A stretch of DNA of 64,000 nucleotides from Cedecea neteri (GTDB lineage: Bacteria > Pseudomonadota > Gammaproteobacteria > Enterobacterales > Enterobacteriaceae), in the NCBI RefSeq assembly GCF_000757825.1, contig NZ_CP009451.1:3534001-3598000 (forward strand), written 5' to 3'. Below are positions 15,981 through 38,377 of this stretch, in pieces; position 1 is the first letter of the stretch, and every line of letters starts with the position of its first letter. The notes beneath the pieces were generated by a model. The model made no database searches. It was not told where the DNA came from and saw only the letters and a program-made list of their open reading frames with translations. The position numbers and the translations under genes were made by a program.

Positions 15981-17021
15981 ATGGTATCTACACATATTGG
16001 CTTCCCGACCGAAACGGTGGCGGTGTTTCTTGCGCTCTCGGTGGGTGCCATTTTCATCGACCTCTTTATGCACCGCAAAGACGAGCCCATCTCGCTGAAA
16101 AGTGCCGCATTGTGGTCGGTGTTCTGGGTTGCAGTGGCAATGCTTTTTGCCGGTTTTTTATATCTTCATCACGGGGCGGAAGTCGCCAGCCTGTTTGTCA
16201 CCGGCTACGCGCTTGAGAAGGTGCTTTCGGTTGATAACCTGTTTGTGATGATGGCGATTTTTGCCTGGTTCGGCATTCCGGATCGCTATCGGCACCGCGT
16301 GCTGTACTGGGGCGTTATCGGGGCGATCGTTTTCAGGGGCATTTTTGTTGCCATCGGCACCGGGCTGCTATCTCTTGGGCCCTATGTTGAAATCGTCTTT
16401 GCGCTGATTGTCGCCTGGACGGCGGTGATGATGCTGAAGGGCGACGGCGGGGAAGAAGAGGTTGAGGACTATTCTCAGCATCTGGCTTATCGGCTGGTAA
16501 AGCGCTTTTTCCCTATCTGGCCAAAGCTTGCCGGGCGCAAGTTTCTGCTTAGCCAGGCCGAAGTCGACCGGGAGCTGGAGAAGCCAGAAAACCAGGCCAT
16601 CACCGTTGGGCGAGTCAAAAAAGCCGCGCTTTATGCTACGCCTCTGATGCTGTGCGTGGCGGTGGTTGAGCTTTCTGACGTGATGTTTGCTTTTGATTCC
16701 GTCCCTGCCATTATTGCCGTCAGCCGTGAACCGCTTATCGTCTACAGCGCAATGATGTTCGCGATACTTGGCCTGCGTACTCTCTATTTCGTACTGGAAG
16801 CGTTAAAACAGTATCTCGTTCACCTGGAAAAAGCCGTGGTGGTGCTGCTGTTCTTTATCGCCGTTAAACTTGGGCTTAATGCCAGCGAACACATCTGGCA
16901 TCATGGTTACAGCATTTCGGCCACCGCCAGCCTGTACGTTGTGCTGGGCGTGCTGGCCGTGGGCATCATCCTTAGCGTGATGTTCCCGGCAAAAGCTGAA
17001 TCAAGCGACAGTAAGAACTAA
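15981..17021 (+). CDS. terC: TerC-family integral membrane protein (orphan TerC)
   Basis: 346-residue multi-helix membrane protein almost collinear with the TerC of plasmid tellurite-resistance operons (starts MVSTHIGFPTETV; contains GYALEKVLSVDNLFVMMAIF and VELSDVMFAFDSVPAII, whose acidic residues in helices are the family hallmark). TerC/Alx proteins are linked to metal ion export or metal loading of exported proteins. None of terZABDE lies nearby, so this copy is unlikely to give tellurite resistance alone. A structured leader covers its ribosome binding site (15911-15977) and an 11-bp hairpin follows. Confidence 0.9.
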   Translation: MVSTHIGFPTETVAVFLALSVGAIFIDLFMHRKDEPISLKSAALWSVFWVAVAMLFAGFLYLHHGAEVASLFVTGYALEKVLSVDNLFVMMAIFAWFGIPDRYRHRVLYWGVIGAIVFRGIFVAIGTGLLSLGPYVEIVFALIVAWTAVMMLKGDGGEEEVEDYSQHLAYRLVKRFFPIWPKLAGRKFLLSQAEVDRELEKPENQAITVGRVKKAALYATPLMLCVAVVELSDVMFAFDSVPAIIAVSREPLIVYSAMMFAILGLRTLYFVLEALKQYLVHLEKAVVVLLFFIAVKLGLNASEHIWHHGYSISATASLYVVLGVLAVGIILSVMFPAKAESSDSKN

Positions 17022-17029
17022 GCAATTGA

Positions 17030-17055
17030 AGGACGCCTTCAGGCGAAGGCGTCCT
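17030..17055 (+). terminator. Hairpin between convergent terC and HAD gene
   Basis: Eleven-bp perfect stem AGGACGCCTTC / GAAGGCGTCCT with loop AGGC between the terC stop (17021) and the HAD-gene stop (17067). No marked T-run; likely a bidirectional or Rho-assisted end. Confidence 0.6.
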
Positions 17056-17066
17056 GATGACGCGAC

Positions 17067-17738
17067 TCAGAGATGTTTGTCGAGGCGCAATCTTTCGATA
17101 GGTGAGCGGCGGCGAGGCCTGGAGCGATGGAAATAGCGCCAGTGGTAATCCCTTGCGGCGGTCAGCAGCTCATAGTCCCCTCGTGAATCTCCCCATGCGC
17201 GCAAATGAAGCTGATTCAGCGGGCCATAGACCTGCTCCAGACGCTGAATTTTCTGGTCGCAGCGGCAGTTATGGCCGTTAATGCGGCCGGTCAGCATGCC
17301 ATCAATCACTTCAAGCTGAGTACCAATAAGCTTAACGCCAAGGCGTTCGGCGAACGGTTGCAGCACGATAGCCGGAGACGCAGAACACAGCGTCACTTCG
17401 GCACCAGAACGCAGCTCGGCGGCGACCGCCATAAGCCCGCGCGGACGCATCATTTTTTCGAAGTTTTTCGCGCAATAAACTTCGGCTTTCTCTTTAACCC
17501 ACTGCTCGTTGACGCCGGTTAAGAAGGTTGAGATCAGCACTTCTTTTAATTCATCTCGGGTCAGCTTCCGGCGCAGGCATTTGAGCGTCGGTAATACCAT
17601 GCGCATCATTTTGCGTGCAAAGGTTCTGCGCCCAAACGCAAACCGCAGGAACGGGACAAAGCTATCGCTATGGGTTAGCGTGCCGTCGAAATCAAAGACC
17701 GACAGTACGCCAGGCGAAGGATCATTCATAACAACCAT
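17067..17738 (-). CDS. HAD-superfamily subfamily IB phosphatase
   Basis: 223-residue cytosolic hydrolase resembling SerB/CicA/PgpC-type phosphatases. Motif I is FDFDGTLTHSD (about residues 15-25, nucleophile and acid/base Asp), motif II the serine in TLCSASPA near 119, motif III K in CRCDQKIQRL, motif IV GDSRGDYELL near 183-192. An alternative ATG lies three codons in. The C-terminal tail is very basic (RSRPRRRSPIER). Substrate unknown: phosphoserine, phosphatidylglycerophosphate and other phosphates are all possible. It is divergent from the trpS2 leader. Confidence 0.82.
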   Translation of the reverse strand: MVVMNDPSPGVLSVFDFDGTLTHSDSFVPFLRFAFGRRTFARKMMRMVLPTLKCLRRKLTRDELKEVLISTFLTGVNEQWVKEKAEVYCAKNFEKMMRPRGLMAVAAELRSGAEVTLCSASPAIVLQPFAERLGVKLIGTQLEVIDGMLTGRINGHNCRCDQKIQRLEQVYGPLNQLHLRAWGDSRGDYELLTAARDYHWRYFHRSRPRRRSPIERLRLDKHL

Positions 17739-17856
17739 AGTTTCCCAAATTTCCCTTTTATCTGTACGTCGCGAGGGGATCTTGCGAACGATAGTGAAAT
17801 TATAAACTTTTAAATCCCGCTACGGAAACCGTCGCGAAATGTGATAGGGTAGCGCA

Positions 17857-17910
17857 ATGAACAGAAAACACACCGCCTTTATCGTTACCCGTTGGTGGCT
17901 GTCTCTTTAG
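17857..17910 (+). CDS. Tryptophan-rich leader peptide of trpS2
   Basis: Seventeen-codon open reading frame MNRKHTAFIVTRWWLSL ending in TAG, too short for ordinary gene calls. It carries two consecutive UGG codons at 17893-17898, the hallmark of ribosome-mediated tryptophan attenuation, and is preceded by AGGG 8 bases upstream of ATG. Its stop codon lies inside segment 2 of the attenuator, so a ribosome that reaches the stop masks segment 2, while a ribosome stalled at the Trp codons leaves it free. No clear promoter is visible; TTGCGA 17782 and TAAACT 17803 form a weak match. Confidence 0.85.
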   Translation: MNRKHTAFIVTRWWLSL

Positions 17911-17973
17911 AGGCGGCAGGAATTCGTTCACCCTTTTCTAATAGCCGCCGGAAGGCGGCTATTTCGTTTTATC
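17873..17973 (+). promoter_or_regulatory. Tryptophan attenuator upstream of trpS2
   Basis: Three mutually exclusive pairings are seen. 1:2: CCGCCTTTA (17873-17881) with TAGAGGCGG (17908-17916), nine pairs including one G-U. 2:3 antiterminator: GGCGGC (17912-17917) with GCCGCC (17944-17949), six GC pairs. 3:4 terminator: ATAGCCGCC (17941-17949) with GGCGGCTAT (17954-17962), nine pairs, loop GGAA, then TTCGTTTTAT. Ribosome at the leader stop blocks segment 2 and allows 3:4; ribosome stalled at tandem Trp codons blocks segment 1 and allows 2:3. This is the classical enteric attenuator logic. Confidence 0.85.
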
Positions 17974-18015
17974 CGTTCGCCCTCCGGCCAGATTTATCAG
18001 TCTCAGGAGGCATTT

Positions 18016-19035
18016 ATGAACAGCTCACATCCTTTGCAGCAAACCATTCTTACCGGCGATCGCCCAACCGGGCAGCTTCACCTCGGGCATTATGTTGGCT
18101 CACTTCGCCAGCGCGTTCAGCTTCAGCACCAGCATCAACAGTACATTCTGGTAGCCGACCTGCAGGGATTAACCGATAACGGCAGCCGCCCTGAGCGCGT
18201 CGCAGGGAATATTCTGGAGGTGATGGCGGACTATCTGGCGGTGGGCATTGACCCGCAGAAAACGACTATCTGCCTGCAGTCCTCGCTGCCCGCGCTGGCT
18301 GAACTCACCATGCTGTATATGAACATCGTGACCGTCGCTCGTGTGGAAAGAAATCCGACGGTGAAAAGCGAGATTGCGCAGAAAGGTTTTGCCCGCTCTC
18401 TGCCTGCCGGGTTCCTTGTTTACCCGATAAGCCAGGCCGCCGATATCACCGCTTTTAAGGCGGCTCTGGTCCCGGTTGGCGACGATCAGCTGCCGATGAT
18501 CGAACAGACCAATGAAATCGTGCACAAGATGAATAGCCTGACGGCGACGCCGCTATTAACCAGCTGCAAGGCGCTGCTTAGCCCGGTAAGCCGCCTGCCG
18601 GGCGTTGACGGCAACGCCAAAATGTCAAAATCCCTGGGCAACACGCTCACCCTTTCTGCCAGCGAGCAGCAGATTCACCAGGCGGTGAGCGCCATGTTTA
18701 CCGACCCGGATCATTTGCGCGTCAACGATCCGGGAAAAGTTGAAGGTAACGTGGTGTTCACCTACCTGGATGCATTCCATGAAGACAAAGAGAAAGTGGC
18801 TGCGATGAAGGAGCACTATCAGCGCGGTGGCCTGGGCGATCGGCAGTGTAAAAACGAGCTGGAAACCTGCCTGCAAAATCTGCTGGCGCCAATAAGAGAG
18901 CGGCGGAATCGTTTTATTGAGGACAAGGCGTATCTGAGCGAAGTGCTGAAGGCCGGGAGTGAAAAAGCACGGGCACTAACCCAGCAAACGGCTGATGAAG
19001 TGAAGCGAGCTCTTGGGTTGCCGATATTATTTTAA
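18016..19035 (+). CDS. trpS2: Tryptophan--tRNA ligase, second (TrpRS II-like) copy
   Basis: Charges tRNA-Trp with tryptophan. 339 residues, class I synthetase with the HIGH-type motif PTGQLHLGHYVGS (17-29) and KMSKS in NAKMSKSLGN near 201-205. Enterics keep the housekeeping trpS in the dam region, and this locus between mutS and mltB has no trpS in E. coli, so this is probably an additional enzyme; sequence resembles TrpRS forms from outside the enteric trpS group (inference). A strong AGGAGG precedes the ATG. It sits behind a Trp attenuator, so its synthesis should rise when charged tRNA-Trp is low, as needed for a backup or drug-insensitive enzyme. Confidence 0.9.
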   Translation: MNSSHPLQQTILTGDRPTGQLHLGHYVGSLRQRVQLQHQHQQYILVADLQGLTDNGSRPERVAGNILEVMADYLAVGIDPQKTTICLQSSLPALAELTMLYMNIVTVARVERNPTVKSEIAQKGFARSLPAGFLVYPISQAADITAFKAALVPVGDDQLPMIEQTNEIVHKMNSLTATPLLTSCKALLSPVSRLPGVDGNAKMSKSLGNTLTLSASEQQIHQAVSAMFTDPDHLRVNDPGKVEGNVVFTYLDAFHEDKEKVAAMKEHYQRGGLGDRQCKNELETCLQNLLAPIRERRNRFIEDKAYLSEVLKAGSEKARALTQQTADEVKRALGLPILF

Positions 19036-19130
19036 AGGCAGAAGGGCAAAGAGAGGCATACTCAGATGGGGAATTATGGATTACCATTATTGGGAAACTT
19101 TCGCGAACATTCACAGGGACAGCCCATCAG

Positions 19131-20207
19131 ATGCGTTATTCAGCCGCAGCACTTCTTCCTATCCTGGTTTTACTCTCCGCCTGTAGCAGTAAGCCGAAAA
19201 CCGCCGAACAGCAGCAAACAAGCGGCACGCCGTCGGGTGGTTTTCTGCTGCAGCCGCAGCACGATGTCTTTATGCAAACCGGGGACTTCGCTAACAACCC
19301 GGAAGCAGAGAAATTCATCGACAAAATGGTGAATGAGCATGGCTTCGACCGCCGCCAGCTGCATGAAGTGTTGTCCCAGGCTAAACGTCTGGACTACGTG
19401 CTGCGCCTGATGGATCAGCAGGCGCCGACTACCGCCCCACCGGCCGGGCCGAACGGAGCGTGGCTGCGCTACCGCGGTAAATTTATCACCCCGGATAACG
19501 TGCAAAACGGCGTTAAGTTCTGGAACCAGTACGAGTCTGCGCTGAACCGTGCTTACCAGGTTTATGGCGTGCCGCCAGAAATCATCGTCGGGATTATCGG
19601 CGTTGAAACCCGCTGGGGCCGGGTGATGGGGAAAACGCGTATTGTGGATGCCCTGGCTACGCTTGCCTTTGCTTATCCACGCCGCGCGCAATACTTTGCG
19701 GGCGAACTGGAAACCTTCCTGCTAATGGCGCGTAATGAAGGTGATGACCCGCTGGCGCTGAAGGGCTCTTTCGCCGGAGCAATGGGCTACGGGCAGTTCA
19801 TGCCTTCTTCGTTTAAAGAGTACGCGGTGGACTTCAACGGCGACGGCCACGTGAACCTGTGGGATCCGGAAGACGCTATCGGCAGCGTGGCGAACTACTT
19901 CAAAGCCCACGGCTGGGAGAAGGGCGACATGGTTGCCGTCCCGGCTAACGGCCAGGTACCGGGGCTGGCTAACGGCTTCAACACCAAATACTCCGTGGCG
20001 GCACTTGGCCAGTCCGGCCTGAGCCCGCAGGGTTCTTTAGGCAACCATCAGGAAGTGAGCCTGCTGCGCCTGGATATGGGCGATCGCTACCAGTACTGGT
20101 ACGGTCTGCCGAACTTCTATGCGATTACCCGCTATAACCACAGCACCCATTATGCGATGGCGGTGTGGCAATTAGGGCAGGCCGTGGCGCTGGCCCGCGT
20201 TCAATAA
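19131..20207 (+). CDS. mltB: MltB, membrane-bound lytic murein transglycosylase B
   Basis: Outer-membrane lipoprotein that cleaves peptidoglycan glycan strands to 1,6-anhydro products. Lipobox LSAC places the acylated cysteine at residue 18. The catalytic glutamate is in IIGVETRWGR near 160, followed by KGSFAGAMGYGQFMPSS and the calcium-loop region DFNGDGHVNLWDPED. 358 residues against 361 in E. coli. Its position before gutQ differs from E. coli, where mltB lies between srlA and pncC. The ribosome binding site is weak. Confidence 0.96.
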   Translation: MRYSAAALLPILVLLSACSSKPKTAEQQQTSGTPSGGFLLQPQHDVFMQTGDFANNPEAEKFIDKMVNEHGFDRRQLHEVLSQAKRLDYVLRLMDQQAPTTAPPAGPNGAWLRYRGKFITPDNVQNGVKFWNQYESALNRAYQVYGVPPEIIVGIIGVETRWGRVMGKTRIVDALATLAFAYPRRAQYFAGELETFLLMARNEGDDPLALKGSFAGAMGYGQFMPSSFKEYAVDFNGDGHVNLWDPEDAIGSVANYFKAHGWEKGDMVAVPANGQVPGLANGFNTKYSVAALGQSGLSPQGSLGNHQEVSLLRLDMGDRYQYWYGLPNFYAITRYNHSTHYAMAVWQLGQAVALARVQ

Positions 20208-34359: not shown

Positions 34360-34452
34360 GGTGAGGTGGCCGAGAGGCTGAAGGCGCTCCCCTGCTAAGG
34401 GAGTATGCGGTCAAAAGCTGCATCCGGGGTTCGAATCCCCGCCTCACCGCCA
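34360..34452 (+). tRNA. serV: tRNA-Ser (anticodon GCT)
   Basis: Ninety-three-base type II tRNA with long variable arm, encoded CCA end, anticodon GCT in CTCCCCTGCTAAGGGAG. Acceptor GGTGAGG pairs with CCTCACC. Same position as E. coli serV, downstream of csrA and upstream of the tRNA-Arg genes. Confidence 0.98.
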
Positions 34453-34456
34453 TTTT

Positions 34457-34533
34457 GCATCCGTAGCTCAGCTGGATAGAGTACTCGGCTACGAACCGAG
34501 CGGTCGGAGGTTCGAATCCTCCCGGATGCACCA
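34457..34533 (+). tRNA. tRNA-Arg (anticodon ACG), copy 1
   Basis: Seventy-seven bases with encoded CCA; acceptor GCATCCG / CGGATGC; anticodon ACG in CTCGGCTACGAACCGAG. Four bases after tRNA-Ser. First of four identical copies, matching the E. coli argVYZQ array. Confidence 0.98.
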
Positions 34534-34728
34534 TTTCCCCCCAAGTCATTAGCAATGACAGTGTGACAGAGAAATAAATTTCTCCGCCAACACCAGGGAG
34601 GATAACGTTGCTTAGCAACGGCCCTTAGGGCGAGCAAACGGCGAATCATTTTCCCGAATGCACCATCTTCATCAGTGTTGCGGCATGATGAGTGACATTG
34701 ATTCAGTAGTAAAAGCAGTAATCCCGAT

Positions 34729-34805
34729 GCATCCGTAGCTCAGCTGGATAGAGTACTCGGCTACGAACCGAGCGGTCGGAGGTTCGAATCCTCCCGGATG
34801 CACCA
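34729..34805 (+). tRNA. tRNA-Arg (anticodon ACG), copy 2
   Basis: Identical in sequence to copy 1. Separated from it by 195 bases holding a diverged form of the structured spacer element. Confidence 0.98.
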
Positions 34806-34999
34806 TTTTCTTCCCAGTCATCGGCGATGACGGTGTGACAGAGAAAGTTAATTTCTCCGCCAGCACCAGGGAGGATAACGTTGCTTCAGCAACGGCCCTT
34901 TAGGGCGAGCCTTCGGCGAGTCATCCTCCCGGATGCACCATCTTCTCCCGATTATCAAATGTTGATAATTGAGACGCGTAGTAAAGCAGTAATCCCGAT

Positions 35000-35076
35000 G
35001 CATCCGTAGCTCAGCTGGATAGAGTACTCGGCTACGAACCGAGCGGTCGGAGGTTCGAATCCTCCCGGATGCACCA
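35000..35076 (+). tRNA. tRNA-Arg (anticodon ACG), copy 3
   Basis: Identical to copy 1; 194-base spacer upstream. The tRNA starts repeat at about 271-277-base intervals. Confidence 0.98.
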
Positions 35077-35276
35077 TTTCTTCCCAGTCATCAGCGATGA
35101 CGGTGTGACAGAGAAAGTTAATTTCTCCGCCAGCACCAGGGAGGATAACGTTGCTTCAGCAACGGCCCTTCAGGGCGAGCCTTCGGCGAGTCATCCTCCC
35201 GGATGCACCATTCTTCTTCGCTGTTGCCTGTAATGTCAGGCAGTAACGAATCAGTAGTAAAAGCAGTAATCCCGAT

Positions 35277-35353
35277 GCATCCGTAGCTCAGCTGGATAGA
35301 GTACTCGGCTACGAACCGAGCGGTCGGAGGTTCGAATCCTCCCGGATGCACCA
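35277..35353 (+). tRNA. tRNA-Arg (anticodon ACG), copy 4
   Basis: Identical to copy 1; 200-base spacer upstream. Followed by one more spacer element and a truncated tRNA 3' end, then no further tRNA. Confidence 0.98.
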
Positions 35354-38297: not shown

Positions 38298-38377
38298 AAA
38301 AAGAAAATGGCCACATACTTGTGGCCAAACATTCATCTCTGAATAACAGGGATGATGATAACAAATGCGCGTCTTTC
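38298..38377 (-). ncRNA. micA: MicA small RNA
   Basis: Hfq-dependent sRNA that represses ompA and other porin messages. On the minus strand from about 38377 the sequence starts GAAAGACGCGCATTTGTTAT, the conserved MicA 5' seed, continues through CAGAGATGAATG and ends in the stem TGGCCAC / GTGGCCA with a U-rich tail (TTTTCTTTTTT). It lies between gshA and luxS on the strand opposite to both, exactly as in E. coli. A sigma-E type promoter precedes it. Confidence 0.95.

Follow-up and report, generated by a model that had tools for sequence, protein, structure and literature searches.

A tryptophan-codon leader with the features of a two-stage attenuator precedes a second tryptophanyl-tRNA synthetase gene in Cedecea neteri

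The trpS2 gene of Cedecea neteri, which encodes a second tryptophanyl-tRNA synthetase (TrpRS), appears to be controlled by a ribosome-mediated, tryptophan-sensing attenuator in its leader, a reading of this auxiliary TrpRS locus to which we give, mechanistic steps included, a probability of roughly 0.88 on the basis of sequence comparison. The locus lies in a 64,000-nucleotide stretch of the genome, referred to here as the window. Comparison with relatives supports the putative leader ORF, its tandem Trp codons (WW), the predicted helices 1:2, 2:3, 3:4, 4:5 and 5:6, a −10-like box and the co-occurrence with a second TrpRS; ribosome stalling, read-through, release of the Shine–Dalgarno sequence (SD) and the inducing condition we infer.

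Transcription would probably begin at or beside the leader AUG. With enough charged Trp-tRNA, the ribosome at the leader stop codon would cover segment 2, terminator 3:4 would form and RNA polymerase would stop; in transcripts that read through under these conditions, segment 5 would pair with the SD of trpS2 and block translation. When charged Trp-tRNA is scarce, through Trp starvation or because the housekeeping TrpRS fails or is inhibited, the ribosome would stall at UGG UGG and melt 1:2, helix 2:3 would form and no terminator would arise; the freed terminator apex could then pair with segment 5, leaving the SD open. Such control would explain a spare TrpRS that stays silent until the housekeeping enzyme or its substrate fails.

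We see about even odds that the element is a relay of six RNA segments. One stall in its near-leaderless ORF would set two serial outputs, termination and then SD access; relay and auxiliary TrpRS would move as one cassette within Enterobacterales and further afield, on plasmids too, and in Hafnia-like and Edwardsiella-like genomes this platform would have acquired leucine codons to control a sodium symporter. If both outputs work, this would be a compact natural case in which a single stalled ribosome couples control of transcription with control of translation, and lineages without one output would be natural experiments.

Table 1 Features of the trpS2 leader region, in window coordinates
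Feature	Position	Strand	Remarks
Predicted extended −10 element, TGA-TAGGGT	17842–17850	+	Position conserved among relatives
Leader peptide ORF, MNRKHTAFIVTRWWLSL followed by stop	17857–17910	+	17 codons, UAG at 17908–17910; homologous leaders in relatives
Regulatory codons UGG UGG	17893–17898	+	WW in 63/64 family loci
Segment 1:2 protector hairpin	17898–17917	+	17898–17905 with 17910–17917, loop UUUA; stop codon in loop and stem
Antiterminator 2:3	17912–17949	+	17912–17917 with 17944–17949, 6 bp
Terminator hairpin 3:4 and U-rich tail	17940–17970	+	17940–17949/17954–17963, 10 bp, GGAA loop
Alternative helix 4:5	17947–17988	+	Terminator apex 17947–17957 with segment 5, 17978–17988; one A–C mismatch
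SD-sequestering helix 5:6	17981–18010	+	CCUCC 17981–17985 with GGAGG 18006–18010; seen in predicted folds
Shine–Dalgarno AGGAGGC of trpS2 (segment 6)	18005–18011	+	
trpS2, auxiliary tryptophanyl-tRNA synthetase, 339 aa	18016–19035	+	TIGR00233, 235.5 bits; PF00579

An original prediction made from the window alone had described a 17-codon ORF with tandem UGG codons, a 2:3 pairing and a terminator with a T-rich tail, and all three are present, with the coordinates given in Table 1. The tail 3′ of the terminator stem (17940–17963) reads UCGUUUUA, and helices 2:3 and 3:4 are mutually exclusive because 17944–17949 is common to both. The segment 1 then proposed, 17873–17881 pairing with 17908–17916, was rejected: 55.0% of cells are paired across 48 relatives against 55.2% in shuffles, no better than chance (330/500), and the conserved 1:2 hairpin lies instead at 17898–17905/17910–17917. 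Segment 5, the SD hairpin and the −10-like box did not figure in that prediction. Overall, its observation is partly confirmed and its interpretation partly supported; classical Trp attenuation before a second TrpRS gene receives strong support from comparison, through WW, a covarying terminator stem, a conserved antiterminator and the −10-like box.

Relatives of TrpS2 at E ≤ 1e-90 were found in 64 of 391 genomes of the family (23 of 149 genera), in 65 of 394 genomes of the order (22 of 119 genera), ten of these being family genomes, and in 2 of 370 genomes of the class, the window's own included. Loci came from a scan of named genomes (the best 80 of more) and from family, order and class samples of whole genomes; 54 of the 55 outside-family loci in the order sample were read, the remaining one (G1025) lying near a contig end. 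Among the named loci listed, the closest protein to TrpS2, at 98%, is from Cedecea neteri. A WW leader precedes 63 of the 64 family copies, the exception (L162) reading UUG UGG, while the other peptide residues drift; leader peptides differ widely apart from WW and the codons within the hairpin. Outside the family, 49 of the 54 copies read have a WW leader, and copies were classed as lacking one if no WW occurred in ATG, GTG or TTG ORFs of 8–45 codons. The five without it are a single-W leader (L194), in a genome with no other TrpRS, and four copies of one family that are 51–57% identical. In Undibacterium, four copies (L072, L073, L074 and L082) have a GCCGC-type hairpin upstream of trpS and no WW leader; trpS regulation may have changed sensor there.

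The single-contig C. neteri genome (4.88 Mb) encodes another TrpRS, which shares 28% identity with TrpS2, in line with the approximately 30% identity to a housekeeping enzyme by which we recognized an auxiliary TrpRS. Among solved structures the two best relatives of TrpS2 are 1yi8 and 2a4m, of which 2a4m bears the name Tryptophanyl-tRNA synthetase II. We counted TrpRS genes in 55 genomes picked from the carriers (E up to 0.001; counts ignore relatedness), taking matches at E above 1e-6 to frames of 397–418 aa as TyrRS and excluding them. Another TrpRS was present in all 38 genomes with a WW-led TrpS2; without WW, 14 of 17 genomes, including seven of Acinetobacter, lacked any further TrpRS at this threshold, and the three that had one were Pseudoalteromonas luteoviolacea and the genomes of L078 and L080. 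The same seven are those in the census from 29 Acinetobacter loci without a WW leader (L035, L037, L038, L040–L064 and L070). The proposed switch would explain why WW accompanies two TrpRS genes and is mostly absent where a TrpS2-type enzyme is the sole one, among the genomes tested. An excerpt of PMC3487940, in which the gene is called trpS2, suggests that Salmonella trpS tolerates insertions thanks to trpS2, and part of PMC11481867 suggests that an ancestral second trpS copy was lost towards E. coli. By both transposon papers, in these excerpts, bacteria with a second copy seem able to do without trpS (PMC3487940, PMC11481867), from which it follows that the second copy can be expressed when needed. 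In Salmonella biofilm, a passage of PMC2805695 lists trpS2, so named there, as up twofold.

The inducer in nature may be an indolmycin-type TrpRS inhibitor and not Trp starvation, with TrpS2 an insensitive isoenzyme as in Streptomyces, a possibility that we take seriously while leaning against it. The His of the VDQHAIT motif in the housekeeping TrpRS, a residue with a role in indolmycin binding, aligns with Gln in TrpS2, and copies of the element occur on plasmids. A close homologue without WW (L216, 7492–8490, + strand) in P. luteoviolacea, whose genome has three TrpRS genes, adjoins aminotransferase, methyltransferase and ligase-like genes that are possibly an indolmycin cluster; that identity is a guess from reading their translations, which weakens the argument, and the switch would answer any cause of uncharged tRNA-Trp. 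A second P. luteoviolacea copy (L215, 4464–5459, − strand) has a WW leader and neighbours that read like the end of a cluster for violacein, the product of a tryptophan-consuming pathway. P. luteoviolacea is reported to make indolmycin in an excerpt of PMC6804068.

To follow the helices among relatives, 150 loci with a WW leader, in both sets, were reduced by a similarity cut to 98 representatives (52 family, 46 outside). Alignment A1 holds 48 family leaders, omitting 4 of 52 rows in another register (L026, L068, L101 and L172), and A2 holds 42 leaders from outside the family, omitting 4 of 46 rows (L029, L036, L039 and L183); L093, which has an insertion between segment 5 and the SD, was barred as a representative. 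Rows that fit the layout less well are thus absent from the pair counts, and the shuffle tests ignore relatedness among sequences. WW is invariant in A1 and A2, but rows were chosen for carrying it.

The terminator stem 3:4 is paired in 92.7% of cells in A1, with 57 two-sided cells (0/500 shuffles), and in 81.3% in A2, with 51. Antiterminator 2:3 is paired in 95.5% of cells in A1, where one pair changes from C–G to U–A in 3 cells, and in 90.1% in A2, with 22 two-sided cells. Covariation across the three stems, proposed earlier as a check, holds for 3:4 and, mainly outside the family, for 2:3, and fails for the 1:2 stem as originally placed. The relocated 1:2 hairpin is paired in 84.3% of cells in A1 (48 sequences; slid versions, 29–53%), which is not above shuffles (83.5%) and comes with no covariation beyond them, because the hairpin hardly varies. 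Its homologue in A2 is 85.8% paired with two-sided changes in 5 pairs, with the caveat that a version slid by +3 has a higher covariation score (0.325 versus 0.256). In the window this hairpin alone has a folding energy of −12.2 kcal/mol, and the full leader is more stable than its shuffles (z = −2.21); for the stretch lacking the leader the difference is slight (z = −1.12).

Segment 5, 3′ of the terminator, matches the terminator apex as a complement and, over part of its length, the trpS2 SD as well; both components that we sought in a translational attenuator, a conserved SD-sequestering helix (5:6) and an alternative anti-sequestor (4:5), are present. Helix 4:5 is paired in 92.2% of cells in A1, with 25 two-sided cells and a covariation score reached by 0/500 shuffles, and in 81.0% in A2, with 51; at A1 column pair 109–147, for example, A–U occurs in 24 sequences, G–C in 18 and G–U in 6. 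For 5:6 the values are 76.0% and 58 two-sided cells in A1, in the majority register and not the window's own, and 76.9% and 30 in A2, where 2-column slides give a similar covariation score with less pairing. An alignment-free swap test, on 51 of 52 family and all 46 outside-family representatives, showed the native segment-5 region binding its own SD region better than the mean of unlike relatives' regions in 51/51 and 43/46 cases, respectively; against mononucleotide shuffles the mean z was −1.45 for the family and −2.34 outside it. For the SD hairpin of the window alone, starting at 17964, the fold is indistinguishable from that of shuffles (z = 0.10, 104/200).

Calculated folding energies are divided on the release step. 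When 2:3 is imposed, 4:5 comes out ahead of 5:6 in 29 of 48 family and only 15 of 42 outside-family sequences, and the window still prefers 5:6; the ON state (2:3 with 4:5) is more stable than the OFF state (3:4 with 5:6) in 20 of 48 and 6 of 42. If SD release works, we infer that it must depend on timing, with segment 5 transcribed ahead of the SD. This additional stage, together with the misplaced segment 1, makes the earlier statement that the classical logic works in every detail too strong. Upstream of the trpS2 of L093, very roughly 160 nt extra separate segment 5 from the SD, an insertion that, from its position, should uncouple the SD stage.

The preference of the window for 5:6 even with 2:3 forced, which means that SD release may not occur, and its U-rich tail would fit transcription attenuation only, with the complementarity of segment 5 to apex and SD incidental or tuning basal translation. 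We consider this unlikely, in view of the two-sided changes in 4:5 and 5:6 in both sets and of several lineages that still keep the SD hairpin without a U-tract. A U-tract (at least 5 U in the 8 nt behind the hairpin) follows the terminator in 36 of 48 family leaders, the window included, and in 17 of 42 outside-family leaders; it is weak, with under 5 U in that stretch, in 12 of 48 and 25 of 42. The terminator is thus not universal, and several lineages without a U-tract seem to retain just the SD stage. A still less probable account reverses the emphasis: attenuation would be mainly translational, the SD hairpin being the older output and the terminator an addition in some lineages. The 17 of 42 outside-family leaders with a U-tract, 5:6 being kept, speak for it; the terminator-like tail in 36 of 48 family leaders, the window's among them, speaks against it.

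The tryptophan-sensing attenuator was also recovered by covariance models. We built R1 from A1 and R2 from A2, the latter with no family member in training. R2 finds 17857–18018 at 53 bits as its sole match in the window (E up to 1), and the trpS2 leader is its only match in the whole C. neteri genome (E up to 0.005). Over 149 family genomes, R1 matched all 21 trpS2 carriers, many of them training members. Its further matches were one decayed copy, a genuine second site in one Hafnia-like genome and low-scoring sites in three more genomes. In the decayed copy (L226, in G044) both trpS2 and the attenuator have decayed and the Trp codons are lost; at L020 an R1 match of 95.6 bits is retained. 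The weak R1 sites (25–27 bits; G062, G027 and G083, of which G083 alone was read) were taken as chance. R2 matched 44 of 265 order genomes, and one of these matches (L268, in G923) precedes a trpS2 with an internal deletion while the attenuator looks intact. Four weak R2 sites (26–28 bits) in one genus were set aside: we take the three read (L269–L271; the fourth is in G841) for ordinary trp attenuators, as their WW leader is followed by genes that read as trpE- and trpG-like.

Among distinct upstream regions, 53 of 71 in the family and 54 of 56 outside it (107/127) have a TANNNT motif whose end falls 6–8 nt ahead of the leader ATG; at a control distance the counts are 5 and 0, respectively. 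In the window this −10-like element is TGATAGGGT at 17842–17850. An SD-like motif before the leader occurs in 19 of 71 family and 0 of 56 outside-family upstream regions. A consensus sigma-70 scan of 16800–19500 gave no site, and no good −35 was seen at the −10-like box. Transcription is predicted to start at or within 1–2 nt of the leader AUG, which would make the leader ORF nearly leaderless; the trpL1 of S. lividans is described as transcribed leaderless in part of PMC8079986. An ATG ORF with WW, a terminator and an antiterminator complement, a pattern defined after the site was seen, occurs once in the 64-kb window, both strands considered, at the trpS2 leader, and once in total over 100 dinucleotide shuffles of the window. 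That single match in 100 shuffled windows, the conservation, the two-sided changes and the model matches make it extremely improbable that trpS2 is unregulated and merely preceded by a chance ORF and an ordinary terminator. The empty sigma-70 scan might be cited for that reading, which the comparative data already contradict.

Attenuators of trpS have precedents: Vecchione and Sello (2010), by its title, reportedly describes the attenuator of Streptomyces trpS. Excerpts report an attenuator upstream of a TrpRS gene for S. avermitilis trpS2 (PMC1262725) and a Trp-codon leader upstream of a TrpRS gene, trpL2 MMTRTCTQLWRAA followed by stop, in S. lividans (PMC8079986). The Streptomyces trpS attenuators, which serve an auxiliary, indolmycin-resistant TrpRS1, likewise place a Trp-codon leader and attenuator before a TrpRS gene, in another phylum and with another leader sequence than the window element. 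Attenuated trpS having been published for Streptomyces, this kind of attenuator is already known, and the earlier view that the arrangement had not been described is untenable as worded.

The E. coli-type trp operon attenuator shares with the trpS2 element a Trp-codon leader and the 1:2/2:3/3:4 logic; the latter is set apart by segments 5 and 6 and by its near-leaderless leader ORF. Membership of the Rfam Trp_leader family was rejected, since RF00513 has no match at the trpS2 leader at E up to 10 in the C. neteri genome; it matches two places there at 75.8 bits (C1:9546–9643 and C1:4872936–4873033), presumably the trp operon leader. These equal matches near both contig ends suggest that the assembly retains a terminal overlap, about 13 kb long, that should have been trimmed. 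A 21-base pattern search for derivation from the genome's own trp leader found nothing.

The gammaproteobacterial pheST attenuator likewise controls aminoacyl-tRNA synthetase genes, and differs from the trpS2 element in its Phe codons and in serving an essential, sole enzyme. A passage of PMC1262725 gives pheST as an aminoacyl-tRNA synthetase operon under attenuation. Caulobacter trpS, like the trpS2 of the window, has a small leader CDS in front, found by ribosome profiling according to an excerpt of PMC4117421. Erm-type translational attenuation, too, works through a ribosome that stalls on a leader ORF and so opens an inhibitory stem–loop before the gene; Erm leaders answer macrolides, as stated in part of PMC5118997, and not amino acid supply, and the trpS2 element has a terminator before its SD hairpin. 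The two-output layout looks new against the open-licence literature with which we compared it. A 2010 survey covers RNA helix chains and overlap with the ribosome binding site, according to an excerpt of PMC4833913; the two-stage idea or a gammaproteobacterial trpS case may already have been published, and in view of the topics of that survey, as far as the excerpt describes them, we do not claim otherwise.

Related elements precede this type of gene in numerous enteric and marine species, and the attenuator and trpS2 occur together on several plasmids. When ten window proteins were tested at 32 named loci (L003–L034), the window neighbours lay within about 5 kb only at L003–L005, where TrpS2 is 92–98% identical. 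On E. coli pB379_2 the pair lies close to IS26 and IS1, and on a conjugative Klebsiella plasmid mtr and a diguanylate cyclase gene accompany it between copies of IS1; E. coli pKTa005_5 and an 8-kb Salmonella record also have both attenuator and trpS2. These plasmid copies, which lay outside the training set, carry the whole element. A Citrobacter youngae query against 5,426 E. coli genomes matched 21 records, of which, among the matches listed, 2 (both plasmids) extend over the gene and 13 over 59 nt only, 6 lower-ranked records falling outside the matches listed. The window sequence itself, used as the query in the E. coli search, had no match at high identity. With copies on IS-flanked and conjugative plasmids, a synthetase that is regulated and possibly insensitive to inhibitors would be passing from one enteric bacterium to another. 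TrpRS relatives (E up to 1e-60) were also seen on 24 Staphylococcus plasmid records.

A second R1 site, carrying leucine codons, was found in 4/4 Hafnia-like genomes and, more weakly, in 2/4 Edwardsiella-like genomes, with a 32-nt partial match in a third of the latter (leucine-version loci L225, 3438–3578, − strand, and L244–L247). Terminator core, segment 5 and SD pairing are as in the trpS2 element, and the leaders are leucine-rich, reading by eye VQAVNLQLSLLLLII (GTG start) and MTMPVQRRLLNLLLLLST, each followed by stop. R1 gave no second site in G012, G078, G089 or G140, and the leucine-version site was absent from the two symporter loci read (L229 and L235, out of L229–L235). The leucine version precedes a sodium symporter gene, the Hafnia-like protein matching PF00209 SNF.

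Elsewhere in the window, five tRNA genes lie at 34360–35350 (+ strand), four of them with equal scores and a spacing of about 270 bases, and the MicA sRNA lies at 38304–38377 (− strand).
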